A DNA stretch of 64,000 bases, from assembly GCA_017622295.1 (NCBI GenBank), contig JAGARK010000011.1:1-64000 (forward strand), in the 5' to 3' direction. Source of the stretch: Oscillospiraceae bacterium. GTDB taxonomy: Bacteria > Bacillota > Clostridia > Oscillospirales > Oscillospiraceae. Within the stretch, counting starts at the first letter, position 1. The number at the start of each line of letters is the position of its first letter. The notes under the pieces are model-generated. The model had not been told where the DNA came from. It saw nothing but the letters and a program-made list of their open reading frames with translations, and did not search any database. The translations under genes and the position numbers were made by a program. Shown one piece after another: positions 10,103 to 25,560 of the stretch.

Positions 10103-10138
10103 AAAAAGCCCAGTTCAGCGTTGCGCCGAACTGGGCTT
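10103..10138 (-). terminator. Terminator after the HPr-kinase-like gene
   Basis: Inverted repeat AAGCCCAGTTC / GAACTGGGCTT plus a few more pairs, followed on the minus strand by TTTTTCTG. It closes the minus-strand operon that contains the 41-residue peptide gene. Confidence 0.85.
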
Positions 10139-10167
10139 CATGCAGTTGTGCGAATTTTGATCGTGCC

Positions 10168-10905
10168 TCACGGTTTGCTCATCATCTCATACGCAATTTT
10201 TGCCGCTTCAGGCTCCATGTTGCACTGAAGACGATAAAAGGAGACTCCTTCGGACAGTCGATCCAGCAGTTCCAGGTATTTGGGCATTTTCCGGGGATCC
10301 ATCGGCCGGTTGCTTTGCTGGAGCAGCATGAAAACCGCCTCTTTTGCCGGAATCTGACAAATACGGTTTTCTTCTCCCCGCTCCAGGATGCAGATGGCCT
10401 TCAGGGGAACCGTAATGTTGGCCCCCAGGCCATGCTTACCGTTCCAGGGAGAGCCGCAAGCGAGGACTCCATCCTTCGTGATCCGCAGGAAGGGCTTATC
10501 GTCGTTGACCATCACAGCCCGGTCGCCAAAGACCTCACGCCAGAGGCGGGTATGGGTGGACTTTCCGGTGCAGCTTTTGGCGGTGAAGAGGTAACCTACA
10601 CCATCTACGGCCACGACCGAGCCGTGGAACAGCAGCGTATCATAGGCGAAAAGCTCTTCGGTGATTTTCCGCTGGACGGCGAGAGTTTCGAGGTAGGCAT
10701 CGGAGAAGTTCCGGACGGGGATTCCCTCCAGCGCATCCTCCCGGGCACTCTTGGTACGCTCGAAGGCGATATCCTCGGGGGTGATGGTTATGGAGAAGTC
10801 TGGTGACGCTTCGGTGTAGAAATGTGAACAATATTCGCTCGTACTTCTATATGTGGCGGATACGTTAATTATGTGGCTACTCAGCTGTATGGTAAATTTT
10901 GTCAT
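10168..10905 (-). CDS. HPr-kinase-like P-loop protein, likely peptide-modifying kinase
   Basis: A 245-residue cytoplasmic protein. The middle matches the catalytic core of HPr kinase relatives: FHGSVVAVDGVGYLF, P-loop AKSCTGKSTHT (G114, K115, S116), an Asp pair in VMVNDDKPFLRI (D135-D136) and GSPWNGKHGLGAN. It lacks the N-terminal domain of true HprK and is not near ptsH. Known relatives outside sugar control include lasso-peptide kinases (ThcoK, PadeK), which phosphorylate a C-terminal residue of a precursor peptide. Here the gene starts 2 bases after the lipoprotein stop and lies downstream of the 41-residue peptide gene, and both products end in GGAGxED. I infer that this enzyme phosphorylates, or otherwise uses ATP on, one or both of them. 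The family is clear, the substrate is not. Confidence 0.8.
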   Translation of the reverse strand: MTKFTIQLSSHIINVSATYRSTSEYCSHFYTEASPDFSITITPEDIAFERTKSAREDALEGIPVRNFSDAYLETLAVQRKITEELFAYDTLLFHGSVVAVDGVGYLFTAKSCTGKSTHTRLWREVFGDRAVMVNDDKPFLRITKDGVLACGSPWNGKHGLGANITVPLKAICILERGEENRICQIPAKEAVFMLLQQSNRPMDPRKMPKYLELLDRLSEGVSFYRLQCNMEPEAAKIAYEMMSKP

Positions 10906-10907
10906 AC

Positions 10908-11396
10908 TTAATCTTCTGTACCAGCACCGCCTACCGATCCAGTAGAATCACCGCCATTGATAACAGGAGGCTCTGTAGCCGGAGGATCCGTAGAAATCGG
11001 CTCAGTAGGCTTTGCTTCGGTTGCGGGCGGTTCAGTTCCCACAGGTTTCGAAGGTTCCGGCTCTTTGTTTGTAGGTTCAGTAGGTACAGGCTCTGTTGGC
11101 GACGGCTTTTCCGTGATAGGCTTCTGCACACCGTTGCCATGGTTTGAAGAATCTGTAGTTTTCTCTGGTGTAACAGTTTTCTCTGGTGTAACAGTTTCCT
11201 CAGTATCGAGTTCCTCTTCAACAGTTTCCTCAATAGCCTCTGTTTCTGTACCGGAATGTATATTCTCTATTGTAGCCTGTTCCGTCTGATATTCGGTTTG
11301 AGAGTTTTCAACTTCCTGCTGTTTCTTATTGCCTCCGCATCCGTTAGTCATGCACAGGATCAAAACCAGGAGAAATATCAATACATATTTACGCAT
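10908..11396 (-). CDS. Pro/Thr/Glu-rich lipoprotein ending in a GGAGTED motif
   Basis: A 162-residue protein with a hydrophobic start (MRKYVLIFLLVLILCMTNGC) whose Cys20 fits a lipobox, then a low-complexity region of TEPxPTEP / PEKTVTPEKT type that probably spans the cell wall. No folded domain is recognisable. The last 17 residues, INGGDSTGSVGGAGTED, match the end of the 41-residue peptide encoded just upstream (ITGGGADGNTGGAGNED) at 10 of 17 positions, including GGAG-x-ED at the very end. The gene sits between the peptide gene and the HPr-kinase-like gene, with a 2-base gap to the latter. A role as a carrier, receptor or self-protection protein for the peptide is inference. Ribosome site AAAGGATTG. 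Confidence 0.8.
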   Translation of the reverse strand: MRKYVLIFLLVLILCMTNGCGGNKKQQEVENSQTEYQTEQATIENIHSGTETEAIEETVEEELDTEETVTPEKTVTPEKTTDSSNHGNGVQKPITEKPSPTEPVPTEPTNKEPEPSKPVGTEPPATEAKPTEPISTDPPATEPPVINGGDSTGSVGGAGTED

Positions 11397-11453
11397 AACA
11401 ATCCTTTCTTTATGAGTAAATATAAAATAAATTACTTACCTTAAACTATGAAG

Positions 11454-11487
11454 CATTTCCCCGGACGGATATCCGTCCGGGGAAATG
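11454..11487 (-). terminator. Perfect hairpin after the peptide gene
   Basis: A 17-base perfect inverted repeat with no spare loop bases (CATTTCCCCGGACGGAT / ATCCGTCCGGGGAAATG) begins 5 bases after the peptide stop. No T-run follows, so it may be a partial terminator or a 3' stabilising hairpin that raises peptide output over the downstream lipoprotein and kinase genes. Confidence 0.6.
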
Positions 11488-11491
11488 TCAT

Positions 11492-11617
11492 TTAGTCTTC
11501 GTTACCAGCACCACCAGTATTACCGTCGGCACCGCCACCAGTAATGCCGCTGGTAGTAATGACATCTTCAACGGAGAACTTGACAACATTCATCTCGGGT
11601 TCCATGAAATTCTTCAT
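11492..11617 (-). CDS. 41-residue Gly-rich peptide, candidate RiPP-like precursor
   Basis: A small gene with a perfect GAGAGGAGG ribosome site 7 bases before the ATG, starting 17 bases after the stop of the large surface protein. The product has a leader-like first half (contains EPEMNVVKFSVEDVITTS, residues 6-23) and a Gly/Asp/Asn-rich end, GITGGGADGNTGGAGNED. There is no signal peptide, membrane segment or Cys, so lanthionine- or sactionine-type crosslinks are excluded. Acidic short leaders with a (V/E)DVITTS-type motif recall small Clostridia peptides that I remember near PqqD/HPr-kinase-like gene sets, but I could not check this. The next genes encode a lipoprotein with the same C-terminal motif and an HPr-kinase-like protein. 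That the peptide is modified and exported is inference; that the gene is real is well supported by its ribosome site, context and hairpin. Confidence 0.75.
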   Translation of the reverse strand: MKNFMEPEMNVVKFSVEDVITTSGITGGGADGNTGGAGNED

Positions 11618-11634: not shown

Positions 11635-14600
11635 TCAAGTATTATTGCTAAAGTAATCTTCGCGATATTTTGTAATGGCATCGTACTCGTTTACCATTGC
11701 TGCGTAAACTGCACGTTCCAGTGCATTGGGGAAACCTGTAGTATCATCTTTACGAGCATTGGCCAGTTCATAAACATTTCTGGTCTTTACATCACCGTAA
11801 TGGAAGCCATCGCCGTCCTTAACATAGAACATAACATAGGCATTGCTATTCAGCATGTAAGTGTAGATCTCCTTATTGTAAATTGCAGAAATGTAACTGC
11901 CATCCACAAAGGCATCACCGCTCTTGCTGCTGAATACATATGCATTTTCACAGGTCATCAGCTGTTCTGCTGTCATTCCGGAGTTTGCATAGACGCCCTC
12001 CGTGTCATAGAATACGATAGCACCATACTCCTCCAGCTGTGCATAATTAATACTGGTCGAATTAGCATCGTTATAAACGCGGGCATTTACCTTCAGGCCC
12101 CAGGGCTCAATCAGGACAATCTGTGCAGTATTGCCAAACTTGTAGGATACAACTTCTTCGCTGGTAAATGCACCATTTTCCGCTACATATGCAGCCAGCG
12201 TAGGAGCATCCTGTTCGGGCAAAGCCTCAATCTTTCCATTCTTGGCAAGATAATCTGCACGGTATGTGGTAATAGCATCCTCCAATTCATACATGGATGC
12301 ATAAACATTACGTTCCAGTACATTGGGGAAACCTGTGGTATCATCCTTACGAGCGAGCAGCAGACTCTTGATATTACGTTCTCTGATAGGAGCATAGTAG
12401 GTTACACCATCCTCCACAATGTAGAACTGAACAAATACAGAGTCAGAGATCTCGTATGTATACAGACCTTCAGCATAGCTTGCGGTCAGGAAGCTACCAT
12501 CAATGGTCGCTGTACCCTGGCTCAAAGAGCAATGGACCACATTTTCGTTGTTCAGGAAGTCCTCTGTGGTCAGAGTATCCTGCGTTGCTTCAGCATTGTC
12601 CAAGTCACTGGCTCGAACAAAATATGCACCATAATCTGTGAGCTTGCTGTAGTCAATGTTGGTCGGATGATCTGTATCATATACGCGGCAGTTCACCTTC
12701 AGGAACCAGGGCTCGATCAAACCAATCTGAGCAGTCTGTCCATACTTATAAGAGCGAGTCACAATTACTTTTTCAGTCACCACATATGTGCTCTCGGTTT
12801 CGGCCAGTTCGTAGCCCTCACCGGCAACGACATTTGCGGTAAATCCATTCTTTACGATGGAGACAACCTTCGTAACTACGACTTCCTCAGTGACATTTGC
12901 CAGCAGGGTTACTTCGTCACCGGCTGCAATAGCATCTACCAGAGAACCATAGTAGGTCTCACCGACCTGGGCAACTGCACCAACGACGGTATCGCAGACA
13001 TCACACTTATAATTGCTATCGTTATCTGCATGGTTGCCGGTTGCAGCAATTTCTTCGGTGTAAGTATCACCGCAAGTAGCGCAGGTGAAGGTCTTGACGC
13101 CAGCTGTAGTACAAGTAGGTGCGGTAGTCTCGACACCATCATCATAGCTGTGGCCGGTAGCCGGAATTGCCTCGGTGTAGGAATCACCACAAGCGGAGCA
13201 AGTGTAGGTCTTGACACCAGCATTCGCACAAGTTGCTGCCGTAGTCACAACACCCGCATCGTAGCTATGGCCGGAAGCGGCAACCGTCTCAGTCTTGCGG
13301 CTCACTTCTGCATTACAGACGGAGCAGTAGACCGCAGTGTCGTAGCTGCCATCAGAAGTACAGGTTGCTGCGACTTCGTTCTCCCTCACTGCTTCGCCTT
13401 CGGTGTGGCCGGAAGCTGCAACAGTGGTAGTCTCGCGGCTGACTTCTGCGTTACAGACGGAGCAGTACACAACAGTGTCATAGCTGCCGGTTTCGGTACA
13501 AGTTGCTGCCTGCTCGTTTTCAGTAACAGGATCAGCCTTGGTGTGACCCAGGGCTTCAACAGTCTCAACCGTGCGGCTGATTTCTGTATTACAGACAGCG
13601 CAGTAGACAACGGATTCATAGCTACCTGTAGTGGTGCAAGTTGCAGGGGTCTCCTTCTCCTTCACTGCATCCGCGCTGGTATGGTTGCCGGTGGCGGGAA
13701 CAGGAACGCTATTACGGCTGAGTTCCACATTACAGACAGAGCAGTAAACAACGGATTCATAGCTGCCGGCTGCGCCGCAGGTTTCGGGCTTTGCGTTCTC
13801 AGTGACGGGAGCCGCATTGGTATGACCCTTGGAATCGGTGTAGTCATCCTTGTAAGTGTCGCCGCAGGTGGAGCAGGTATAGGTGGTGTAGCCCTGTTCC
13901 GTACAGGTAGGTGCAGTAACAGCAGCTACATGATTATGGCCATTGGCTTCACCCTCGGTTGCGCCACAGGTGCCACAGGTCTTGGGGTCGGTACAGGTTG
14001 CATCCTTCCAGGCATGGCCCAGAGCATCCTGATACTCACCGACGCTGGTAACACCGCAGATGGTACAAGTGGTAGTGGTGTAGCCCTGTTCCGTACAGGT
14101 AGGATCAGTTACGACCATCTCATTCTGGTGTTCGCAGTTCATGCCGCAGATGCCGCAAACGCCTGCGTTCCAGGAATGAGCACAGACCTCATTACAGTTG
14201 CCGCAAACACCTGCGTTCCAGGCGTGACCCTTTGCGGGAATTTCAGTCTGTTCAAGAGTGACCGTGCCGCAAGTAGAGCACTTGGTGCCGTCGGTCAGAC
14301 CGGTCTCGGTACAGGTTGCTGCCTTGCCGGCAACAGTCTCTTCGGTGTGGCCCAGGGCGGCGATCTCTTCCTGCTCAACAGTGGTCTCGCCACAGACGGA
14401 ACACTTCGCACCGTCAGTCAGGCCGGTTTCGGTACAGGTTGCTGCCTTGCCGGCAACAGTCTCTTCGGTATGGCCCAGGGCGGCGATCTCTTCCTGTGCA
14501 ACAGTGGTCTCACCACAGACGGAACACTTCGCACCGTCAGTCAGGCCGGTTTCGGTACAGGTTGCTGCCTTACCGGCAACAGTCTCTTCGGTGTGACCCA

Positions 14601-17145
14601 GGGCAGGAATCTCTTCCTGAGCGGTAATGGTCTCACCGCAGACAGAGCACTTCACACCCTCGGTCAGGCCGGTTTCGGTACAGGTTGCGTCCTTAGCGGG
14701 AATGGTCTCTTCGGTGTGGTTATCACACTTAACGGTCCATTTGTTATTGATATACTGATAGGTAGTTGCAACACTGGCACCGCTGGTTTCAGTAAAGGTG
14801 CCATCGGCATTCTTCAGCTTTGCGGGAGTAATGCCAATTGCGGTATTGTATTCAATAACCTGAGAACTGTTTTCTTCGTACTGATTGCTGATCTGAGCAG
14901 TAGTGGTTTCACTGCCGGCGCGAAGAATCGCTGTTCCAGCACCGGTGCTGCAGATATTGGCACCATTGGTGGTGGTATAAATGTAGCCCTCAGAAGAATC
15001 AGCAGTGCCATTGATCACAATGGATGCATCCTCGGTCAGTGCGGTACGGGTGCCTGTTCTGCCGGGAGCATACGCCAGAGCAATAAATGTCTTCTCAGCA
15101 GTACCGCAGTATCCGCCCCAATCATCCAGATCGTATACAATCACTTTGGCATCATTGGTCAGCTTGCAGGTTGCGCCTTCATCAATGACAATGGAGGCAC
15201 CGGGCAGCAAGCCAAGATCCTGAGATACATCCATCGTACCACTCTTGACGTTAATGGTAATATTCTGGTTTATCGGCAGGACATAATTGGCAGAGTTCAA
15301 AGTCACGCTGCCAAGCGAAACTTGAATTTTAAAGGAATAGGAAGCAAGCTTACCCTCACCTGCAACGTTCAGGTTCAGACGGTCGGTGCTTTCAATGTAA
15401 TCCTTTGTCAGAGCGCCGGAGGTCATATTGAACATGCCGCTGGAGCCAACAAAGGGAACCAGCGCCGTCTTGATGCCTATCATCGTAATAGTAACAGCAA
15501 AATGACAATACTCAGTGGCGCCAGCCTCCAGGGTCATGGGAACTTCCACATTCTGAACATAGTACTGGCTCAGCGGGAATACTCTGTTCGCATTATCCTG
15601 CAGCTGATTGGTCGCATCACCGCCGCGGTAGTCCATAACCTGGAAGCATTCATAAACTGTGCCTCCGCTCTTTACCGTCACAGAACCGGAACCGGTAATG
15701 TAGCCCCATGCATACAAATTGGCGCCACTGTTCACAGTAATGGTACTGCCGCTGTTCATGGCGATAAAACCAACAGGACCATGGGGGCGACCATTGGCAC
15801 CCATCTTTGCACTCTGGGTACCGGAAATGCTGATGGCGCCATTCACGGTGATGTTTGCACCGGAGGCCATGGTCAGGGTGCGGAAAGCAGTGGGTTTGAC
15901 AATTGCTGCATCTGTAAGCGCAGGCGCAGTCGTGCACACTGTATTCGCGGAATCATAGGGAATCAGCAATGTGACACCGGCAGGGATGGTGTAATCACCA
16001 GCGCCCAGAGTACCATCATTGGCAACCACTACCACCTTAGAAGTAGAAAGCGTCGCTGCCTTCTGCGCTGCCGTGTTCAAGTCATCGAACAAATACATAT
16101 TGCCCGCAATGAACCATGCCTTTGCAGAACCTGCGAAGACTGCAGTCAGAGTCGTATCCTCAGTGGGCTGGAATGTAAAGGCGGATTCTGTGCTTTTGAT
16201 CAAGCCGTTTCCATCGACCCAGCCCAGGAAGGTATAACCGGTGTTTGCGGTTGCGACCAGCGCCGCACCGTCGGTAAGGCTCACGTCCATTGTGGTGTTA
16301 TCATCAACCGCTGTGCCGCCGACAGTCACAGTACCGCCGGCAGTATCGTAACAGAAGGTCACCGCAGAGCTGTCCTTTGCTTCCACAAGCACGAAATTGC
16401 TTAACGTCAGCGTATCGGTCTGACTGGTCCAACATGTACTTTTGGCTGTCAACGTTACTGCCGCATTCGCATCCAAATCTACAGGCCCGTATGTACCGGT
16501 GCGGCTGGACGGTGTCGTCCCCTCAATGTAATATTCATCAAAGTTATTAAAATTATAATCAAATGTAAGCGTCGCTTTTTTGCCGCAGGTATTTTTGATG
16601 GTAAAGGTATAATTCGTACCAAGAGTAAAACCCGTGTTATAAACGACTTTTACAGTTGCATCGTCTGTAACCGTCATCGTGCCGAGGTTAGAGGTAACGG
16701 TCACCTTGCCGGAAAGCACGGTGTTCTCGGCAATGGGCATGGGATTATACAGCTGTTCCCATACAGAGCAGAATCTGCCATAAGCCTCGCCATCGAGCGC
16801 TTCAAATTCTTCCTCAGTCAGATTCTGACCATCCGCCGCGATGGCATCCATTTCTTCCCTGGTTGCCATCAGAGTATCGCCATCGGCATTGATGATGGCC
16901 GCAGCGATGTCGTTATCAGTCATATCGGCAGTGATGCCGTACTGTGCTACAATGGAATCCATACGCTCCTGAATGGATTCAGCGAGCGTATGCTCGGAAA
17001 GAGGTGCCGCTGCCGCTTCTTCCGCAACAACAACAGCTTCGTCAGCCTCCGCTTCCTCCGCCCAGACCGTAGCGGGCGTCAGAGAAAAGACCATTGCCAA
17101 TGCCATCAGGAACGAAAGGCACCTCTTCAGGTGTTTTCTGAACAT
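11635..17145 (-). CDS. Very large secreted Cys-rich repeat surface protein
   Basis: About 1836 residues from the ATG that follows GAGGAGG (an upstream in-frame ATG at 17166 lacks this spacing). A signal peptide (FLMALAMVFSLTPATVWA) opens the protein. The N-terminal half has beta-rich domains and an InlB B-repeat-like unit near residues 265-340 (GYTFLGWVDGNG). From about residue 810 there are many units of CxxxGxxxxxxCxxCG type: four near-identical 41-residue copies (HTEETVAGKAATCTETGL), single variants, and four 44-45-residue SYDTVVYCSVCNAEVSR copies. The end carries two related ~120-residue domains, each starting YK(Y/F)G(N/Q)TAQI and containing LIEPW.LKVN.RVY. There is no sorting signal, transmembrane anchor or dockerin. 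Probably an adhesin or wall-associated structural protein. It lies between a prepilin gene and the peptide gene in one operon-like series. Confidence 0.88.
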   Translation of the reverse strand: MFRKHLKRCLSFLMALAMVFSLTPATVWAEEAEADEAVVVAEEAAAAPLSEHTLAESIQERMDSIVAQYGITADMTDNDIAAAIINADGDTLMATREEMDAIAADGQNLTEEEFEALDGEAYGRFCSVWEQLYNPMPIAENTVLSGKVTVTSNLGTMTVTDDATVKVVYNTGFTLGTNYTFTIKNTCGKKATLTFDYNFNNFDEYYIEGTTPSSRTGTYGPVDLDANAAVTLTAKSTCWTSQTDTLTLSNFVLVEAKDSSAVTFCYDTAGGTVTVGGTAVDDNTTMDVSLTDGAALVATANTGYTFLGWVDGNGLIKSTESAFTFQPTEDTTLTAVFAGSAKAWFIAGNMYLFDDLNTAAQKAATLSTSKVVVVANDGTLGAGDYTIPAGVTLLIPYDSANTVCTTAPALTDAAIVKPTAFRTLTMASGANITVNGAISISGTQSAKMGANGRPHGPVGFIAMNSGSTITVNSGANLYAWGYITGSGSVTVKSGGTVYECFQVMDYRGGDATNQLQDNANRVFPLSQYYVQNVEVPMTLEAGATEYCHFAVTITMIGIKTALVPFVGSSGMFNMTSGALTKDYIESTDRLNLNVAGEGKLASYSFKIQVSLGSVTLNSANYVLPINQNITINVKSGTMDVSQDLGLLPGASIVIDEGATCKLTNDAKVIVYDLDDWGGYCGTAEKTFIALAYAPGRTGTRTALTEDASIVINGTADSSEGYIYTTTNGANICSTGAGTAILRAGSETTTAQISNQYEENSSQVIEYNTAIGITPAKLKNADGTFTETSGASVATTYQYINNKWTVKCDNHTEETIPAKDATCTETGLTEGVKCSVCGETITAQEEIPALGHTEETVAGKAATCTETGLTDGAKCSVCGETTVAQEEIAALGHTEETVAGKAATCTETGLTDGAKCSVCGETTVEQEEIAALGHTEETVAGKAATCTETGLTDGTKCSTCGTVTLEQTEIPAKGHAWNAGVCGNCNEVCAHSWNAGVCGICGMNCEHQNEMVVTDPTCTEQGYTTTTCTICGVTSVGEYQDALGHAWKDATCTDPKTCGTCGATEGEANGHNHVAAVTAPTCTEQGYTTYTCSTCGDTYKDDYTDSKGHTNAAPVTENAKPETCGAAGSYESVVYCSVCNVELSRNSVPVPATGNHTSADAVKEKETPATCTTTGSYESVVYCAVCNTEISRTVETVEALGHTKADPVTENEQAATCTETGSYDTVVYCSVCNAEVSRETTTVAASGHTEGEAVRENEVAATCTSDGSYDTAVYCSVCNAEVSRKTETVAASGHSYDAGVVTTAATCANAGVKTYTCSACGDSYTEAIPATGHSYDDGVETTAPTCTTAGVKTFTCATCGDTYTEEIAATGNHADNDSNYKCDVCDTVVGAVAQVGETYYGSLVDAIAAGDEVTLLANVTEEVVVTKVVSIVKNGFTANVVAGEGYELAETESTYVVTEKVIVTRSYKYGQTAQIGLIEPWFLKVNCRVYDTDHPTNIDYSKLTDYGAYFVRASDLDNAEATQDTLTTEDFLNNENVVHCSLSQGTATIDGSFLTASYAEGLYTYEISDSVFVQFYIVEDGVTYYAPIRERNIKSLLLARKDDTTGFPNVLERNVYASMYELEDAITTYRADYLAKNGKIEALPEQDAPTLAAYVAENGAFTSEEVVSYKFGNTAQIVLIEPWGLKVNARVYNDANSTSINYAQLEEYGAIVFYDTEGVYANSGMTAEQLMTCENAYVFSSKSGDAFVDGSYISAIYNKEIYTYMLNSNAYVMFYVKDGDGFHYGDVKTRNVYELANARKDDTTGFPNALERAVYAAMVNEYDAITKYREDYFSNNT
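14227..14718 (-). repeat. Four tandem 123-bp coding repeats
   Basis: Four consecutive 123-base units within the large surface gene, each coding a 41-residue HTEETxxxKxATCTETGL(T)-type unit with two CxxC-like Cys groups. The two middle copies are almost identical in DNA, so copy number could vary by recombination. Confidence 0.85.
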
Positions 17146-17187
17146 TGCGTAAACCTCCTCGTACATAATTGATCATAAAATGCGGAT

Positions 17188-17240: not shown

Positions 17241-18431
17241 TCATTCGCTCTTCATCAGGTCGCCCAGCAGCGTATTCAGTTCGCTGCTGTTGAAGCCATT
17301 GGTCAGGATATCCTGAGCCGCACCGCTGGAAGAGCTGTTGCTGATGATCTCCATGGAAGACATATAAGCATTCAGGTCTGCCTGGCCCTCGGAACTACCC
17401 AGATAATTTCTGAACTCCTCGGATTCCAGGGTTGCCAGCACATTGGTCATGCCGGAGAAGTTGCCGGAAGCAATAATATCGGAAGACTGATCAGTCGCAC
17501 CTGCGTTCTTGCCTGCCTCAGAGTTGACGTAAGCGGTGTACATACCGTATGTCAGAGCCAGCTTGGCCATAGCATCCTGTGCAGTGTCGGGATCGTTCAG
17601 TTCATTGCGCAGAGAAGCTGCGGAACCCTCCTGGCCCAGGAAGCTGGTGTCCATACCCTGGCTCTGCTGGGCGGCGGACAGGACCAGGCTGTTTGCCAGA
17701 ACAGAGCTGTTCAAAACGGGGTTGTCATTTTCATCAGCGGTATAAACGAGTTTGTAGAATTCCTCGTCCATTTCCATGCCCAGGCTTGCAGCCAGATTTG
17801 CCAGATAGGTGGCACCCTCGTCATCGCCGTAAATCAGCTGTTCAAAGACAGAGTTGGGATTCGCTGCATTATTAGGATCCAGCAGACCGGCAGCAATATC
17901 GGAAATATTGCCCACCTTGCCCAGCAGGACGTCAGCACCCAGATCACTCAGGTTGTTGTTCTTCAGAGCATCGGCCTGGGACTGGCTGACAGAGATGTTG
18001 TACTCGTTGCCATTGGCGTCCTTGTAGGTCAGGGTCACCATATCGTCGGTAATGAACATACCGCCCTTGAAAGTCAGACCGGTAAACACGTCAAACTTCT
18101 GAGTATTACCGGCAAAGTAAATTGCAAACTTCTCCTGATGCTTGCTGGGCAGCATAGCATCCACGTCAAAAGTAACAGAGCCGTCAGCATAGCTGGTGGA
18201 AGCAACGCCGTCATCCAGGCAAGCTGCTGCGAATGCAGTATTGACTGCGCTCAGCAGAGTGTAGTCGCCGGCTTCCTTAGCCTTGTTGATGTAGCCGCTG
18301 TAAGCGGGAATTGCGATACCGGCCAGGATTGCCAGAATGGCAATGACCACGATCAGCTCCACCAGAGTGAAGCCGCCGGCATGGTGGCGGTTCAGTGTCC
18401 AGAACCGCTTCCAGGTCTTGGTAAATTTCAT
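17241..18431 (-). CDS. Oversized type IV prepilin-like protein
   Basis: A 396-residue protein with a class III signal: a basic leader of about 19 residues (MKFTKTWKRFWTLNRHHAG), then G|FTLVELIVVIAILAILAG, with Glu at mature position 5 and the helix ending AIPAYSGYINKAKEAGD. The globular part of about 340 residues is more than twice that of a usual pilin, contains many Ala/Asn/Ser-rich helices and has no Cys. It would be processed by the PilD peptidase encoded at 54.4 kb and joined to the pilus made by the operon at 48-59 kb. The gene heads the series that continues with the large Cys-rich surface protein and the peptide genes. A minor or tip pilin is more likely than a bulk subunit because of its size. 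It has its own strong promoter. Confidence 0.88.
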   Translation of the reverse strand: MKFTKTWKRFWTLNRHHAGGFTLVELIVVIAILAILAGIAIPAYSGYINKAKEAGDYTLLSAVNTAFAAACLDDGVASTSYADGSVTFDVDAMLPSKHQEKFAIYFAGNTQKFDVFTGLTFKGGMFITDDMVTLTYKDANGNEYNISVSQSQADALKNNNLSDLGADVLLGKVGNISDIAAGLLDPNNAANPNSVFEQLIYGDDEGATYLANLAASLGMEMDEEFYKLVYTADENDNPVLNSSVLANSLVLSAAQQSQGMDTSFLGQEGSAASLRNELNDPDTAQDAMAKLALTYGMYTAYVNSEAGKNAGATDQSSDIIASGNFSGMTNVLATLESEEFRNYLGSSEGQADLNAYMSSMEIISNSSSSGAAQDILTNGFNSSELNTLLGDLMKSE

Positions 18432-18754: not shown

Positions 18755-19015
18755 ATGAAAATTAAAGACGGTTTCCTCCTGCGCCAGGTCGCGGGGCAGT
18801 GCGTCGTGCTGCCCGTGGGCGGCGATCTGGACCTGAATATGATGATCACCCTCAATGACTCCGCCGCCTTCCTCTGGGCGCAGCTCCAGTCCGACACCAC
18901 CCCGGAGGCTCTGGTGGAAGCCGTGCTGGGGGAATACGACGTTGATAAGGCTACCGCTGAGCGCAGCGTCGACGACTTTGTAAAGATGCTCAATGACAAT
19001 GGATTCCTTGTCTGA
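18755..19015 (+). CDS. PqqD-like peptide-binding protein (RiPP recognition element fold)
   Basis: An 86-residue protein from the ATG that follows GAAAGG; an upstream in-frame ATG at 18704 overlaps the promoter and is rejected. The pattern DGFLLRQVAGQCVVLPVG, then MMITLNDSAAFLWAQL, then a helical part ending FVKMLNDNGFL is that of the PqqD family. Family members are winged-helix peptide chaperones that bind the leader of ribosomally made peptides and hand them to modifying enzymes. It overlaps the S26-like gene by 23 bases. No modifying enzyme follows directly; the nearest candidate peptide and kinase genes are at 10.2-11.6 kb. The role in that pathway is inference. Confidence 0.85.
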   Translation: MKIKDGFLLRQVAGQCVVLPVGGDLDLNMMITLNDSAAFLWAQLQSDTTPEALVEAVLGEYDVDKATAERSVDDFVKMLNDNGFLV

Positions 19016-19463
19016 ACACCTGATCCTTGAAGATGAGCTGCTGCCCCTGATCCGGGAACGGCTGGGTGCCAGTCAGAAGGTGCGGTATCTTCCCTTCCGG
19101 GGCGTCAGTATGCTGCCCATGCTGCGCCAGGGTAAGGATTCCGTGGAACTGGCTCCCCTGCCCCCGCAGCTGAAAAAATACGATCTTCCCGTCTATCAAT
19201 ACCCCAGCGGAAAGATCGTCATGCACCGGGTAGTGGCTGTCACCGAAACAGGGTATGTCTGCCTCGGCGATAACACCTACGAACATGAGCAGATCGCGCC
19301 GGAACAGCTGATTGGTCTGGTCAGCGCTTTCAAACGCGGCGATCGACGCATCAGCGTCGATGACCCCGTTTATCGGTGCTACTGCCGCCTGTGGGTGGCA
19401 GTTTTCCCTCTGCGTAAGCTCCTGAAGCGGCTCAAAGGCAGACTGCGGAGGTTGCTGAAATGA
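18993..19463 (+). CDS. Soluble S24/S26-like peptidase
   Basis: A 156-residue protein with the signal-peptidase-like core: RGVSMLPMLRQGKDSVEL (Ser39 in SMxPML), then IVMHRVVAV (His78) and YVCLGDN. The Ser plus His arrangement resembles SipW/ER-type S26 enzymes rather than the Ser-Lys bacterial type. There is no transmembrane anchor; the C-terminus is strongly basic (RKLLKRLKGRLRRLLK) and could bind membrane peripherally. It overlaps the PqqD-like gene by 23 bases and the ABC gene by 4 (ATGA), so the three are translationally coupled. A cytoplasmic peptidase that trims a leader before export is the natural inference; no substrate is shown. Confidence 0.82.
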   Translation: MTMDSLSEHLILEDELLPLIRERLGASQKVRYLPFRGVSMLPMLRQGKDSVELAPLPPQLKKYDLPVYQYPSGKIVMHRVVAVTETGYVCLGDNTYEHEQIAPEQLIGLVSAFKRGDRRISVDDPVYRCYCRLWVAVFPLRKLLKRLKGRLRRLLK

Positions 19464-21124
19464 AGAATCATTCCCTAATTTGGATTTTACGCCGCGTCCG
19501 GCGCCGGATTCCAGCGCTTCTGGTCATGACCGCCGCCCAGGTGGGACATGCCCTGTTCAGCGTTATCTTTGCCCTGGGTACCCAGGGCGTCATTGACAGC
19601 GCAGTATCTGCGGACTCCCAGCTATTTCTGCAAGCCTGCATCCGTCAGGGCTGCATCATCGCGGGAATCCTCATCTGCGTAACGGTGCTGCGGCACCTGC
19701 GGGACAGACTCCGGGCCGATCTGGAATGGGACTGGAAGCAGACGCTGCTCCACGGTCTGCTCCACGGCGATTATGCCGATGTATCGGCCTATCACAGTGC
19801 CGAACTGATGAACCGGCTTAATAACGACGTAAACAAGGTCAATGACGGCGTGCTGTCCATCATCCCCAACGCTGCCGCCATGCTCACCCGGCTCATCGCC
19901 GCGGTGGTGGTACTCGGAACGCTGGACGGCAGGTTTACCCTTCTGATCCTGACCCTCGGCATCATCGTCATCGTCGCCACCGGCCTGATGCGGCAGCGGC
20001 TGAAGGAGCTGAACAAGCGCGTCAGTGAGCAGGACGGTAAGGTTTCCGGCTTCCTGCAGGAGACCATGGAGAAGCTGCTGATGGTACAGACCATGGACGT
20101 CTCCCGGGAGGTGGAACGCCGGGCGGATATTCTGCTGGAAGAGCGATACATCACCCAGCGCAAGCGGAAAAACATCGCCCTTGTCACCAACACCGGCATC
20201 AGCCTCATGTTCTATGGCGCAGGCTTTCTGGCCCTGGTCTGGTGCTCCTGGCGGCTGCTGCACGGCCGGATGACCTTCGGCGCTCTGATGGCCATTACCC
20301 ATCTGGTCAGCCAGCTGCAGACCCCCTTCGTCAATCTCTCCGGCGTCATGCCCCAGTATGTGGCCATGATCGCCTCCGGCGAGCGCCTCATGGAGCTGGA
20401 GCAGATCCAGGGCGAGCCCGCCCCCGCCAAGGAAGCTCCCGAGGATATGTACCGCCGGATGGAAGCCCTCCGGGCCCGGGATCTGAGCTTCTCCTACGAC
20501 CGGGACGAGATCCTGACAGGCGCCGATTTTTCCCTGCCCAAGGGCGCCTTCGCCGTCATCACCGGCCCCTCCGGCATCGGCAAAAGCACCCTTCTGAAGC
20601 TGCTGTTGGGCGTATTTCGCCCGGATCGGGGGCAGCTGTATCTGGATTGTTCCGGCAGCAAAATCCCCCTGGATCGCAGCACCCGGCGTCTGTTTGCCTA
20701 TGTTCCCCAGGGAAATCTTCTGCTCAGCGGTACCCTGCGGGACAATCTGACCATCGTCAAGCCCCAGGCGACGGAGGAGGAAATCCGGCAGGCGGTATAC
20801 GTCAGCGCCATGGATGAATATCTCCCCCAGCTTCCCCTGGGACTGGATACGCCTCTGGGCGAAAGCGGCGCCGGCCTCTCCGAAGGCCAGGCCCAGCGGC
20901 TGGCCATTGGCCGGGCCATTCTGGGCGGCGCGCCCATTATCCTGCTGGACGAATGCACCTCCGCGCTGGATGCGGACACGGAGCAAAAGGTCCTGCGGCG
21001 CATCAAGGCCCTGCCGGGCAGGACCTGTATCGCCGTGACCCACCGCCCGGCGGCCCTGGCCCTGTGCGACTGGCGGCTGGAGGTCTCCGGCGGCAAAATC
21101 AACGCGGTGGCCGCAGAAACATAA
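19460..21124 (+). CDS. ABC exporter, fused permease and ATPase
   Basis: A 554-residue half-transporter with an N-terminal exporter-type membrane domain (about six helices, residues 15-310) and a C-terminal ATPase. Walker A GPSGIGKST lies near 370, the Q-loop in YVPQGN, the signature LSEGQ near 474 and Walker B IILLDECTSALD near 495, followed by the H-loop in VTHRP. No C39 peptidase domain is present, so leader removal would need a separate enzyme, which the overlapping S26-like gene could supply. It probably works as a homodimer exporting a peptide or other small product. A clear terminator follows. Confidence 0.93.
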   Translation: MKNHSLIWILRRVRRRIPALLVMTAAQVGHALFSVIFALGTQGVIDSAVSADSQLFLQACIRQGCIIAGILICVTVLRHLRDRLRADLEWDWKQTLLHGLLHGDYADVSAYHSAELMNRLNNDVNKVNDGVLSIIPNAAAMLTRLIAAVVVLGTLDGRFTLLILTLGIIVIVATGLMRQRLKELNKRVSEQDGKVSGFLQETMEKLLMVQTMDVSREVERRADILLEERYITQRKRKNIALVTNTGISLMFYGAGFLALVWCSWRLLHGRMTFGALMAITHLVSQLQTPFVNLSGVMPQYVAMIASGERLMELEQIQGEPAPAKEAPEDMYRRMEALRARDLSFSYDRDEILTGADFSLPKGAFAVITGPSGIGKSTLLKLLLGVFRPDRGQLYLDCSGSKIPLDRSTRRLFAYVPQGNLLLSGTLRDNLTIVKPQATEEEIRQAVYVSAMDEYLPQLPLGLDTPLGESGAGLSEGQAQRLAIGRAILGGAPIILLDECTSALDADTEQKVLRRIKALPGRTCIAVTHRPAALALCDWRLEVSGGKINAVAAET

Positions 21125-21235: not shown

Positions 21236-21919
21236 ATGATTGTATCAAGCAAAGTCACCATGGATTTCCAGCAGCCGGGAAGTCCTCAGATCATCAACGC
21301 GGTACAAAACGACCAGTATTCCCGGAATCTGGAAATCACGCTGTATGACAGCGGCACACCCTGGACCATCCCGGAGGATGTGGACGTGCTGATTCGCTAC
21401 TGCAAGTCCGATGGGACGGGGGGCGAATACAATATGCTGCCGGACAAATCCGCAGCCTGGAACGCCGAGGGCAATGTGCTGACCGTGGCCCTGGCGCCGC
21501 AGGTACTGACAGCACCGGGCTCCGTGACGCTGTCCGTGCTGCTGTTTTCCGAAGAGCAGGTACTCAGCACCTTCCGGATCATGATCCGCGTCAGCCGCAG
21601 CGTGGAGCCCGTGGCAGCGGATTCGGAAAACTACTATCACATAGCCGGAGAGAGCATCATCGCCGCTCTGGGATACACCCCGGCGTCAACGCTGTCCGTG
21701 CAGATGTTGACCACGCAGAAGGTATCCAAAAGCGGCATCAGGCTGGGCATCGGCACGGACGGGCTGCTGTATCTGTATGTCGACAACCGGCCCGTGGGGA
21801 CGGGGATCTATCTCTCCGGCGGCGTTGTGGGAGACGGCGGCGCTACAGATGACAAAACCGATACCGAAACCACCGCAGTACTGGATTCGGCTGTGCTGGA
21901 TTCAGCGGTGCTGGCATAA
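21236..21919 (+). CDS. Phage baseplate upper protein (BppU-like) domain protein
   Basis: A 227-residue protein whose first ~130 residues resemble the N-terminal domain of lactococcal-phage-type BppU proteins: VTMDFQQPGSPQIINAVQND, NLEITLYDSGTPW, DVDVLIRYCKSDG and VTLSVLLFSEEQVLSTF. A linker GESIIAALGYTPAS, common in phage tail fibres, leads to a short beta region and a low-complexity end of repeated AVLDS. There is no signal peptide. It is followed 12 bases later by an SGNH hydrolase gene with a tail-fibre-like start, so the pair looks like a baseplate/tail-fibre module. No capsid, terminase, lysis or integrase genes are near. It could be a stranded phage remnant or reused in another contractile or adhesive particle. 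Ribosome site GAAAGGGGG. Confidence 0.75.
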   Translation: MIVSSKVTMDFQQPGSPQIINAVQNDQYSRNLEITLYDSGTPWTIPEDVDVLIRYCKSDGTGGEYNMLPDKSAAWNAEGNVLTVALAPQVLTAPGSVTLSVLLFSEEQVLSTFRIMIRVSRSVEPVAADSENYYHIAGESIIAALGYTPASTLSVQMLTTQKVSKSGIRLGIGTDGLLYLYVDNRPVGTGIYLSGGVVGDGGATDDKTDTETTAVLDSAVLDSAVLA

Positions 21920-21931
21920 AGGAGGAACTGC

Positions 21932-23467
21932 ATGAGTTATGAATTACATGAATTCGCAACGGGCGATACCCTGTACGCTGCGGAATTAAACGAGATGGAT
22001 GCCCAGATCCGGGCAAATACCAACGCCATCGCCCTGCTCAACGGCGAGATCGTTGAAAGAGATCCCATCACCTTTGAGACGCAGGCCGGCGGCTATTGGG
22101 ACAAGACAAACAGCTGGGTAGAGGATTCAGCTGCCTATGCCAAACGCACCTGCCTCATTCCTGTTGAGGGCGGCGATCACTTTGCTTACGCTGCAAACAG
22201 CCGCTGGAATGTGCCCAGTGTGATCTGGTTTGATTCGGATGAAAACCTGCTTTCCTGGGAGCAGTGGACCAACCCTGAGGGCGGCATGATCCTCTATACC
22301 GCGCCCCAGAACAGTGCCTATGCCAGATTCTACGCCCTGGGATACGCCGAGCCGGTCAATCTGGAGGTGCACTACCTCTACGGCGGGTCGAACCGTCAGA
22401 TAACCATCGAATCCGGAGACGACGGCTACTGGTCCTGGCAGAACGTCTGGGTCTCCGAAAGCGGCTGCGGCAGCAAGAGAACCAACCCCATCATCGTCGA
22501 AGCCGGGGACACCTTCTATTACACAGGTGCGGATCTTGCCAATGTTTACGGCTCAGTTTTTTACGGCTCCGACGGCTCCATTGTTCAAAGAACCATCCAC
22601 TCCGACAACGGCGCGGTGGCTACTCACGTCATTACGCCGCCGGATGACGCCGTGCTGGTCCGGTTTTATTCCCTGTCCTCCGAAACCGGCGCCGAAGGAT
22701 GTACGCTGGGGGTTTCCTATGTAAACGAGGGCACCGACGAGCCGGGCGAGGTCAGCAGCAGCATCATCAAGCTGCGGGCCATGAACTGCCTGTGGGGCAA
22801 GAAGTATGTGGCCTGCGGCGATTCCTTCACCGAGGGCGACTTTACAAACTACACCGACGAAAACGGAAACTCCGCCAAGGATTCCGACGCCTATGACCCC
22901 GCCCTGGGGCTGTACAAGACCTATCCCTGGTGGATCGCGGAGCGCAACCGGATGATCCTGGTGAATGAGGCCAAGTGCGGTACCACCATGTACAACAACG
23001 GCAGCGCCAGCGCCTTCAGCGTTACGAGGTATACGGAGGTCCCCGCCGACGCAGACTATGTGACCATCTGCTTCGGCCTGAACGAGACCTCCGCCACCAT
23101 CGGCACCCTGGCGGACACCACCAACGATACCGTGATGGGCGCGTGGAATATCGTGTTGGAATACCTGATCACCAATCTGCCCTACGCGAAGATCGGCATC
23201 ATCATCCCCGACGCCTGGTGCTCCGAAGCCATGCGGGAGGCGCTGATCGCCGTAGCGGAATACTGGGGCATTCCCTATCTGGATCTGACGGGCGATGCGA
23301 AGGTTCCCCTGCTGATCGGCGGCAAGCGGGGCGGAGATACGATCAACTCCAAGGCCATTGCCCTGCGCAACGCCGCGTTCCAGGTGACGGATGCAGATTC
23401 CCATCCCAATCTCAAGGCCCACGAATACCGCTCCACCGTGATTGAGAACTTTATGAGAAGCCTGTAA
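21932..23467 (+). CDS. Tail-fibre-like SGNH/GDSL hydrolase
   Basis: A 511-residue protein in three parts. Residues 1-40 (ELHEFATGDTLYAAELNEMD) form a start typical of phage tail proteins. Two similar beta modules follow, each beginning near the shared GGYW / DGYW motif and containing a SYA/CGSKRT(N)-type stretch. An SGNH/GDSL esterase domain runs from about residue 285 to the end, with the catalytic Ser in ACGDSFTEGDF (near 297), FGLNET as the Asn block and DSHPN as the Asp-His pair near 489-491. Such domains deacetylate polysaccharides on phage tails. No signal peptide is present. It shares an operon with the BppU-like gene. The target might be an acetylated surface polysaccharide. Strong AAAGGAGG ribosome site. 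Confidence 0.85.
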   Translation: MSYELHEFATGDTLYAAELNEMDAQIRANTNAIALLNGEIVERDPITFETQAGGYWDKTNSWVEDSAAYAKRTCLIPVEGGDHFAYAANSRWNVPSVIWFDSDENLLSWEQWTNPEGGMILYTAPQNSAYARFYALGYAEPVNLEVHYLYGGSNRQITIESGDDGYWSWQNVWVSESGCGSKRTNPIIVEAGDTFYYTGADLANVYGSVFYGSDGSIVQRTIHSDNGAVATHVITPPDDAVLVRFYSLSSETGAEGCTLGVSYVNEGTDEPGEVSSSIIKLRAMNCLWGKKYVACGDSFTEGDFTNYTDENGNSAKDSDAYDPALGLYKTYPWWIAERNRMILVNEAKCGTTMYNNGSASAFSVTRYTEVPADADYVTICFGLNETSATIGTLADTTNDTVMGAWNIVLEYLITNLPYAKIGIIIPDAWCSEAMREALIAVAEYWGIPYLDLTGDAKVPLLIGGKRGGDTINSKAIALRNAAFQVTDADSHPNLKAHEYRSTVIENFMRSL

Positions 23468-23757: not shown

Positions 23758-24174
23758 TTAGTTAGCCTTAGGAATGGTCCAGCCAGCATCGTTAGCACCC
23801 TCAGCAGACTCAGTAGCCCGCCAGCTAGCAGTGTTGCCGGTCTCCAGATTCAGCTTAGTCAGGTCACCGCCATAGTATTCACCAATCTTAACGTTGTCAG
23901 TGACTGCAGTGCCAGTAGCATCAGCGGCCAGAGTAACACCAGTGACACCCTTGCCGTCTTCATAGGAGATGGCGATAACAGTGCCTTCGGTAGCGTTAGC
24001 AGCCATAACAGCGGTCTTGATAGCGCTCAGAGCGGTCTGGTCGCCAGCTTCCTTGGCCTTGTCAATGTAGCCAGCGTATGCGGGGATAGCGATACCTGCC
24101 AGGCTGGCCAGGATTGCGATGACGACAATCAGCTCAACCAGAGTGAAGCCGCCGTTGGACTTGAACATGTTCAT
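23758..24174 (-). CDS. Type IV major-type prepilin
   Basis: About 138 residues. The chosen ATG (MNMFKSNGG) lies 8 bases after GAAAGGA; an earlier ATG at 24183 overlaps that ribosome site and is less likely, and the next ATG at 24168 is also possible. A short leader is followed by G|FTLVELIVVIAILASLAGIAI with Glu at mature position 5, then AYAGYIDKAKEAGDQTALSA and a small beta domain of about 90 residues without Cys. Size, strong ribosome site, private promoter and terminator suit the main pilus subunit. The assembly machinery is in the operon at 48-59 kb. Helix and start closely resemble the oversized prepilin at 17.2-18.4 kb, which suggests a common origin. Confidence 0.92.
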   Translation of the reverse strand: MNMFKSNGGFTLVELIVVIAILASLAGIAIPAYAGYIDKAKEAGDQTALSAIKTAVMAANATEGTVIAISYEDGKGVTGVTLAADATGTAVTDNVKIGEYYGGDLTKLNLETGNTASWRATESAEGANDAGWTIPKAN

Positions 24175-24280
24175 TGGAATCATTTCCTTTCAATATTTTA
24201 ATTTTGTATCCCGGGGACCGGGAGTGTTGTCGGCATCGCGGCGCCCAGAGGGCATCCTCCGACACCTTACTTTCGGATAC

Positions 24281-24390: not shown

Positions 24391-25560
24391 TCAGAAAAAG
24401 TAGTCCAGACCCACATAGCCCAGGGCATCCTGCCGGGAACGGAGATTCTCCGGGCTGAGGGCATCCAGGTTCCGCTCCTGCCTGCGAAGGCTCCTCCTCT
24501 CGAAAAGGAGCTTGTAAAATGGCCGGATCAGCCAGACCACGGGCAGCAGCCAGGGAGCTTTCTTCAAAATCCGATACTTCCCCCGGAGGGTCTGCACCGG
24601 CGGAAAGGCCGTCTGCCACAGATACACCATCCGGCCGCTGATACCCGGCAGGGTATGCTTCGTATCCCGGACCGCCCGGGACAGGGTCCGACTCTCGCCG
24701 GAGCCGAAGCTGCCGCTGCCGAACACATAATCCGTGATGAAATCCGTCATTTCCGTTTCCGGGGCGGCTTCAAACCACACGGCAAGCAGTTCCCGCAGAT
24801 TGGTATAAAACTCCAGAAGCTGCAGCTTTTCCAGCTTCCGTCTCACCTGGACCTCATCCAGCTGAGGAAAGCTTCGTAAAAACACCCACAGGTCCGTCAC
24901 ATGGCGGCAGCCGATGCCGCCATCCCGGTAGTGCTTGGCAAAATGGGTGAATATGAAAACAAATTCATCCTCCGGCGTCATGGCGAAGCGATGGCCCTCC
25001 CGATGCTGCGCCAGAGGCCAGCCGTCGCCGAAGTAGGCGTGGAAGTCCTTGTTATACGATGGCATCAGCCGCTTGTGCAGCTCAACATACACAGCCGGGG
25101 TTTCCCACACCAGCTCGTGGTCTGTTTCCTCCTTGGGGGAAAAGCCCAGGGAAGCCATAATGGGGGCGATCTTCTCATACTGCTCCAGCCGGATCAGAAT
25201 GTCCGCATCGCCCATCATCCGAAGCTCCGGTTTGGGATAGCGGCGCTTCATATTGCAGCCCTTCAGGGGCATGTAGTCGATGCCGTTTTCGTCGAAGGCC
25301 CGGAACATCCGCTCCAACGCCCGCTGCTGCCCCTCGCTGACCTGCATGGCCTTACAGAAGCTCTGAAACAGCTTCTGCATCACAGGCGTCGTCTGAGGAA
25401 TGCCGCAGATACAGGCTCCCTCAAAGGCCAGGGGCGCAATATGGTGGCGCTTGATGTCAGGATAGGCCTGCTCCAGGTCAAAGCCCTCCGGAAGTACCCG
25501 GGGCTGCTGGACAACGGCACTTGCGATCAGGGCGGCAATGCCCTTGTGAATGATGTCCAT
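24391..25560 (-). CDS. Nucleotidyltransferase-fold protein of unknown substrate
   Basis: A 389-residue cytoplasmic protein resembling the uncharacterised nucleotidyltransferase family found with peptide-modification gene sets (Pfam NTP_transf_5, by recall). The core is YMPLKGCNMKRRYPKPELRM followed by MGDADILI, which provides the Asp pair of the fold, then an alpha-helical remainder with YLWQTAFPP. It starts 2 bases after the LCP gene and is the last gene of the exopolysaccharide series. Such proteins often occur with PqqD-like and HPr-kinase-like genes, both present within 15 kb here, so it may belong to that pathway rather than to polysaccharide synthesis. It could transfer a nucleotide or sugar to a peptide or protein; that is inference. 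Confidence 0.75.
   Translation of the reverse strand: MDIIHKGIAALIASAVVQQPRVLPEGFDLEQAYPDIKRHHIAPLAFEGACICGIPQTTPVMQKLFQSFCKAMQVSEGQQRALERMFRAFDENGIDYMPLKGCNMKRRYPKPELRMMGDADILIRLEQYEKIAPIMASLGFSPKEETDHELVWETPAVYVELHKRLMPSYNKDFHAYFGDGWPLAQHREGHRFAMTPEDEFVFIFTHFAKHYRDGGIGCRHVTDLWVFLRSFPQLDEVQVRRKLEKLQLLEFYTNLRELLAVWFEAAPETEMTDFITDYVFGSGSFGSGESRTLSRAVRDTKHTLPGISGRMVYLWQTAFPPVQTLRGKYRILKKAPWLLPVVWLIRPFYKLLFERRSLRRQERNLDALSPENLRSRQDALGYVGLDYFF

Follow-up and report, generated by a model that had tools for sequence, protein, structure and literature searches.

Lasso peptide pathways with a phosphorylated product, i.e., bsf of Bradymonas, paeninodin and pseudomycoidin, are the closest described relatives of the locus analysed here. 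The kinase BsfK is reported to phosphorylate Ser3 of the precursor BsfA with the aid of an RRE protein, the YxxPxL motif of BsfA spans positions -17 to -12, and a rare Ile or Val occupies position -2 in some phosphorylated lasso precursors (PMC10368454). Lasso clusters of rumen Clostridia also carry a kinase, a PqqD protein and a nucleotidyltransferase alongside the lasso genes, but differ from the present locus in a transglutaminase-type LasB, a cyclase LasC and other precursors (PMC7533575). SynChlorMet (ScmC and ScmD of NCBIfam) pairs an HPr-kinase-like with a PqqD-like protein, as here. Membership in SynChlorMet was rejected, as the ScmC match is far below the cut-off (20 vs. 125 bits); the radical SAM gene is absent from the part of the window studied, although present in one related locus, L100.

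Here, we describe a peptide-kinase locus in a stretch of 64,000 nucleotides from an Oscillospiraceae bacterium (contig JAGARK010000011.1), hereafter the window. In the papers drawn on for comparison (PMC10368454, PMC8498205 and PMC7533575), phosphorylated lasso pathways share with this locus the YxxPxL-type leader, the PqqD-like B1, the HPr-kinase-like K, the nucleotidyltransferase N, the ABC exporter and the spacing to Ser3 of BsfA. In contrast to these pathways, a Sec11-like peptidase is in place here and neither a B2 protease nor a cyclase was found with the cassette, the border of leader and tail reads V/I-I-T/x-T-S, a C-terminal Ser is not the rule, and a stalk protein carries a copy of the tail. 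Among the papers listed in literature searches that covered little of the subscription literature, which were lasso papers and unrelated ones, none described this gene set, so that novelty is not proven.

Results

The Peptide, Lipoprotein and Kinase Genes of the Window

A previous inspection of the DNA without database searches (the sequence-only reading) had proposed a peptide, a lipoprotein and an HPr-kinase-like enzyme in one operon. All three genes were recovered at the positions it had given, on the minus strand. The precursor-like peptide (11492..11617, 41 aa) consists, from its translation and leader family, of the leader MKNFMEPEMNVVKFSVEDVITTS and the tail GITGGGADGNTGGAGNED, and an AGGAGG ribosome site can be read 8 nt 5' of its ATG. 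The lipoprotein (10908..11396, 162 aa) has a signal peptide, a weak lipobox (TNGC) and a T/E/P-rich stalk, and the gene for the HPr-kinase-like P-loop protein (10168..10905, 245 aa) starts 2 bases past the lipoprotein stop codon.

The genes stand in a row on the same strand. A strong hairpin (11453..11488, minus strand; z -6.5 against 200 shuffles) lies directly 3' of the peptide gene, between it and the lipoprotein gene, and the proposed operon may thus be attenuated there. This hairpin is terminator-like on the plus strand and is not followed by a T run after the stem on the minus strand; it is possibly an attenuator or a transcript stabiliser. Another terminator-like stem (10105..10139, minus strand) was listed 3' of the kinase gene, although terminator-like sites taken together are no more frequent there than chance predicts (7 found vs. 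8.2 expected). Known RNA families and tRNAs were not found within the window. A gene for a secreted surface protein of 1843 aa with an InlB-type repeat (11635..17166, minus strand) ends 17 bp before the peptide gene, and a frame of at least 400 aa precedes 43 of the 63 peptides with enough upstream sequence.

The Wider Cassette

The partners that make the system RiPP-like sit outside 10168..11617, beyond the extent proposed earlier. A PqqD-family, RRE-like protein (18755..19015, plus strand) matched PF05402 over the cut-off (E 3.4e-18). The next gene encodes a Sec11-like S26 peptidase (18993..19463, plus strand), recognised by its catalytic boxes and by profile matches to signal peptidase I and SEC11 at E 0.0022 to 0.067 (signal peptidase I at 0.0022, SEC11A at 0.013); the score against the NCBIfam model was below the cut-off (22.4 vs. 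51.85 bits). The residues S39, M40, P42, H78, R79, G92 and D93 are invariant in 31/31 family members, and the resulting SMxP, HR and GD boxes, which also occur in Sec11 and archaeal signal peptidases and in the Ni-SOD maturation protease, predict a signal-peptidase-like enzyme. The protein differs from Sec11-type peptidases in its length of about 155 aa, in having no N-terminal membrane segment (by eye), and in the position of its gene between those for PqqD and the exporter. The ABC exporter (19460..21124, plus strand) was assigned by ABC_tran and ABC_membrane matches, and an NTP_transf_5 protein (24391..25560, minus strand; PF14907, E 5.1e-43), with an LCP neighbour, heads an exopolysaccharide-type gene run. 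The two halves of the cassette lie on opposite strands, with the surface-protein gene and a prepilin-like gene between them. Two prepilin-like genes (17241-18431 and 23758-24183) share a 144-nt repeat, 80% identical, and flank the PqqD-S26-exporter segment, while phage-type BppU_N and GDSL/tail-fibre-like genes (21236-23467) stand between the exporter and NTP_transf_5 genes.

We found that the genes for the kinase, PqqD, S26 peptidase, exporter and NTP_transf_5 protein recur together in gut Clostridia. Among the 80 best named kinase loci, from a scan with at least 593 candidate stretches, 59 have an S26 relative, 46 have PqqD, 37 the exporter (>200 bits) and 35 NTP_transf_5; the peptide (15 bits) lies in 33, leaving 47 without one nearby at that score. 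These counts are lowered because no locus extends beyond 8 kb from the kinase and contig ends cut many of them short. Named and unnamed loci overlap, and some, judged by length and content, are the same contigs (e.g., L066/L153 and L111/L138). A kinase always paired with genes of another kind, which the sequence-only reading had listed as evidence against itself, was not observed, though 15 of the 80 loci contain none of S26, PqqD, exporter and NTP_transf_5.

Some loci contain additional genes. A radical SAM/SPASM gene between the peptide and PqqD genes of L100 (12795-13946) suggests that an additional modification takes place in some cassettes. L088 (7345-8361), L089 (6113-7114), L091 (8835-9902) and L119 (6190-6981) encode a secreted protein in the interval from PqqD to S26, and its C-terminus resembles VIEIGxDGxVDLG in each. 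Five tandem peptide genes with the common ending NPNCENEGPAGDAFL occupy L097 (7004-8113), a 9.7-kb contig on which cassette genes were not found.

The Leader Family and Its Conserved Serine

The leader follows the pattern [YF]xxPxMxVxxFxxEDVITTS. Of 101 genus genomes, 35 had a match (E<=1) in a search with the single sequence, in several cases a weak one, and a leader profile detected the leader in 30 of 300 family genomes (E<=1e-4). The peptide is thus conserved in relatives, whose lack of it had been named beforehand as a refutation. Several genomes encode multiple copies, and at E<=1e-3 the profile detected a peptide in 31 of 35 kinase-bearing genomes without one beside the kinase (35 searched out of the 47 loci without an adjacent peptide). 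The register cut removed one of 75 distinct peptides; in the remaining 74, Asp stands at Pro+11 in 72, Phe at Pro+7 in 67 and Ile at Pro+13 in 65, and the positions of the lasso-type YxxPxL motif hold Y/F in 72, P/A in 66 and M/L/I/V in 73. A YxxPxL-type leader motif thus accompanies a PqqD-type B1, as in lasso pathways, and binding between them is predicted. Two other traits ascribed to the peptide did not hold for the family: the ending GGAGxED was rejected as a family mark, since peptide endings differ and the window ending is common to the neighbouring lipoprotein (GGAGTED), and the supposed freedom from Cys fails in 22 of 103 tails.

At the end of the leader, a Ser occurs at Pro+16 in 70 of the 74 register-passing peptides. 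When the profile was stopped before this Ser, it was retained in 70/72 leaders at 20 bits, 97/100 at 15 bits and 103/110 at 12 bits, statistics that are partly selected because many loci were fetched via full-leader searches. Five of the seven leaders missing it at 12 bits (L089, L090, L210 twice and L213) adjoin kinases distant from the window kinase. In the window peptide this residue is Ser23 (codon 11549..11551, minus strand), 16 residues past Pro7, and the distance from Pro -14 to Ser3 of BsfA is likewise 16 residues (PMC10368454); with the two aligned in this way, position -2 of the window leader is Val. The sequence-only reading had left the target as any Ser/Thr or the C-terminus; conservation and, by analogy, spacing make Ser23 at the leader end the likely site of phosphorylation.

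Co-Occurrence of Peptide and Kinase

Scoring the co-occurrence of peptide and kinase had been suggested with the original proposal. In the genus, a kinase above 200 bits, a line set after the scores were known, was found in 22 of 25 genomes with a peptide match, as compared with 9 of 25 without (Fisher p 3.3e-4); the comparison covers 25 of the 35 peptide-positive genomes, ten weak or odd matches being omitted, and 25 of the 66 negatives. One of the nine peptide-negative kinase genomes has a 20-bit peptide beside the kinase, and two have candidates of 10-14 bits. In the family sample, the kinase was present in 19 of 22 peptide-bearing genomes and 27 of 200 overall (p 1.7e-17), with the line of E<1e-30 chosen after the kinase scan, genome lists compiled by hand, and the 200 kinase-scanned genomes assumed to sit within the 300 peptide-scanned ones, which is suggested but unproven. 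These data support the pairing of a RiPP-like precursor with a kinase outside the lasso class.

The HPr-Kinase-Like Protein

The window kinase was assigned from below-cut-off domain matches and the family alignments A1 and A2. It matched Hpr_kinase_C at E 0.033 (14.2 bits vs. the Pfam cut-off of 33.3), and an HPr(Ser) kinase/phosphatase proper was rejected on the curated hpr-ser model (19.5 bits vs. a cut-off of 240). Against the PDB, the kinase profile gave weak matches, with PEP carboxykinase first (E 0.037) and HPr kinase 1ko7 second (E 0.099). Among 54 aligned relatives, H94, K115 and D136 are invariant and S116 and D135 occur in at least 90%; the His, the P-loop Lys-Ser and the Asp pair are those of RiPP precursor kinases, and kinase activity is predicted. 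His94, Lys115, Ser116, Asp135 and Asp136 are thus kept in the window protein (P0003), but the P-loop, claimed earlier to be intact, is not fully canonical: Cys112 of P0003 stands at a position that is Gly in at least 90% of the 54 relatives, and Ala109 of the family takes the place of the first Gly of the lasso kinases, a correspondence drawn from our own spacing. The BsfK residues matched by spacing are G166 for Cys112, whose change to Ala was tolerated without loss, and G163 for Ala109, whose change to Ala damaged solubility (PMC10368454).

Relatives of the kinase are abundant (at least 593 confirmed candidate stretches in one scan) and were found in rumen and gut Clostridia, including the isolates Ruminococcus flavefaciens Y1, Faecalibacterium prausnitzii APC923/51-1 and Coprococcus catus VPIC661. 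The genome of the window has a second copy, 51% identical (L002/L067, C70:15973-16701), near which no peptide, PqqD, S26 or NTP_transf_5 relative was found. A third, more distant HPr-kinase-like gene (L003, C1:1-2232) adjoins a radical-SAM-like gene and a gene for a peptide that contains Cys and begins similarly (MRKVYVKPEIEFEDFSLSTNIAGGC), and L003 is perhaps a second RiPP-like cluster.

Peptide-Tail Copies at the C-Termini of Many Stalk Proteins

Judged by its sequence, the window lipoprotein is no bystander, as its C-terminus (NGGDSTGSVGGAGTED; 10911..10958, minus strand) copies the peptide tail. Many loci encode near the peptide a signal-peptide or membrane-anchored protein, often with a lipobox, whose low-complexity stalk ends in a C-terminus resembling the peptide tail. 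The stalk and peptide tails read GGAGTED and GGAGNED in the window, DDDELPPVPVG and DEDELPPVVIG in L117, IELPFVPAF and GELPFVPAE in L140, and DDGLEWSPLTPIN and DDGLNWSPLTPI in L225; poor pairs also occur, e.g., L148 and L187.

Stalks were defined by a rule fixed after the first ones were known: proteins of up to 420 aa that have an early K/R in a hydrophobic N-terminus, a TSPEDKQNG content of 60% or more and no hydrophobic end, and are encoded within 1.5 kb downstream. This rule excluded L125, although its tails match (EEDELPWIPA and DEDELPWVPANE). Pairing each peptide with the nearest downstream stalk gave 26 pairs, or 23 once the near-duplicate stalks L132, L178 and L246 were dropped. The mean local score of the 23 pairs was 22.5, as compared with 15.3 for mismatched pairs, and 0 of 100,000 shuffles scored as high (1 of 100,000 in an earlier set of 17 pairs, with L132 and L178 dropped). 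With the control stalk segments -56..-40 and -36..-20, 4226 and 5545 of 20,000 shuffles, respectively, did so. A repeat in which three stalks were re-paired to a better neighbouring peptide was discarded as a biased choice. The own stalk was the single best match for 5 of the 23 peptides, because a general ELPFVP-like motif is common to loci as well. In one R. flavefaciens genome, tails differ among loci and match the own stalk in 2 of the 3 loci read, which speaks for a locus-specific partner. The new observation is that the C-terminus of the lipoprotein or membrane stalk beside a peptide tends to be a copy of that peptide's own tail.

A sortase- or exosortase-type signal was rejected for the stalks, which have no hydrophobic C-terminal segment by eye. 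In L241, from the genome of L147, the reading frame of a large surface protein (1048 aa) continues past the C-terminus into a peptide leader and tail, either a natural fusion or an assembly error.

Search for Lasso Cyclase and B2 Protease

The absence of a lasso cyclase and B2 protease from the system, as asserted in the sequence-only reading, agrees with our searches of the genomes examined, in which neither was found with the cassette. The B2 domain PF13471 was over the cut-off in 0 of 23 genomes, with weaker matches in 5, and in a second set 2 of 36 genomes were marginally over it (26.6 and 26.4 vs. 26), wherever in the genome. Of the 23 genomes, 22 had Asn_synthase matches, which, where strong, were full-length asnB-like frames; no match lay on the contig of the window, and in 22 of 23 genomes none was on a contig with a known kinase. 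Only G243 had such a match 40 kb from the kinase, with a weak 25-bit match 7 kb away. Lasso-ready cores, with Gly1 and Asp/Glu at 7-9 after a cut behind the Ser, were counted in 24 of 103 tails, including that of the window. Lasso pathway membership was thus not supported by the B2 search, the cyclase search or the tail composition.

Discussion

The sequence data show the gene set, the conserved leader with its Ser, the co-occurrence of peptide and kinase, and the locus-specific tail copy. We consider it somewhat probable that the system is a relative of the phosphorylated-lasso pathways that works without a cyclase and keeps a copy of its product tethered to the membrane. The peptide, we infer, is phosphorylated, cleaved and exported, and the tethered copy acts as its mimic. 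The PqqD (RRE) protein would bind the leader through the YxxPxM-type motif and present it, and the HPr-kinase-like enzyme would phosphorylate Ser23 at the border of leader and tail. The Sec11-like S26 peptidase may cut off the leader near the end of VITTS; the TTS before the tail suits the small -1/-3 residues accepted by signal peptidases. The ABC protein would export the short acidic, Gly- and Pro-rich tail, and the NTP_transf_5 protein may attach a sugar to the phosphate, like its relative in pseudomycoidin. The lipoprotein or membrane-anchored stalk would show an unmodified tail copy on the cell surface, where one partner could encounter both the modified peptide in free form and its plain, tethered counterpart. 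Weighing against this reading are the kinase scores under all curated cut-offs, the P-loop departures Cys112 and Ala109, the seven of 110 leaders that have no Ser at Pro+16, the kinase loci with no peptide or no partner genes close by, the low number of peptides (5 of 23) whose own stalk is the best match, the partial selection behind the Ser counts, and the position of the two cassette halves on opposite strands.

The shared tail could instead be a recognition tag that makes peptide and stalk substrates of one processing, modification or export step, with no ligand mimicry. That two proteins of unrelated context both end in the motif would suit a tag, as would the general ELPFVP-like form in many loci and the score of mismatched pairs (15.3), which exceeds that of mid-stalk controls (11.3); yet a genome-wide enzyme needs no match within a locus of the kind seen in R. 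flavefaciens, where tails differ between loci, and the stalk has no leader. We regard this explanation as unlikely, though worth keeping in sight. It is improbable, to a greater degree, that the kinase regulates surface or exopolysaccharide genes and that the peptides act unmodified, either as secreted signals or as small partners of the surface proteins. This reading would account for the large gene before 43 of 63 peptides, the exopolysaccharide genes close to the cassettes of the window, L066, L088 and L119, and the solitary kinase copy in the same genome, but fits poorly with the RRE-type leader, with PqqD and the peptidase beside the kinase, and with a nearly invariant Ser at the BsfK spacing.

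Least credible of all is a true lasso pathway with its cyclase and B2 encoded elsewhere, in which a cut after Ser23 gives a core with Gly1 and Asp8. The lasso-like leader motif, PqqD, kinase, NTP_transf_5 and exporter are those of such pathways, and the window peptide has Gly1 with Asp/Glu at 7-9; however, few of the tails across the family share this arrangement, B2 was at best marginal in the genomes searched, and the strong Asn_synthase matches are asnB-like and reach a kinase contig in G243 only.

If the cyclase-free, phosphorylated-lasso-like reading is carried further, the peptides may, tentatively, represent phosphopeptides, or perhaps phosphoglycopeptides, of a new class that is widespread in gut bacteria. 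Lasso-type leader reading, the kinase and the nucleotidyltransferase would here be reused without closing a ring, and each exported peptide would have a membrane-tethered copy of its own core, the free and the tethered ligand acting as a pair on a locus-specific surface partner. If true, phosphorylation would be the main modification of a peptide class, so that the roles of lasso K and N could be tested on simple linear peptides, and the tethered copy would offer a direct handle for finding the target of the peptide.
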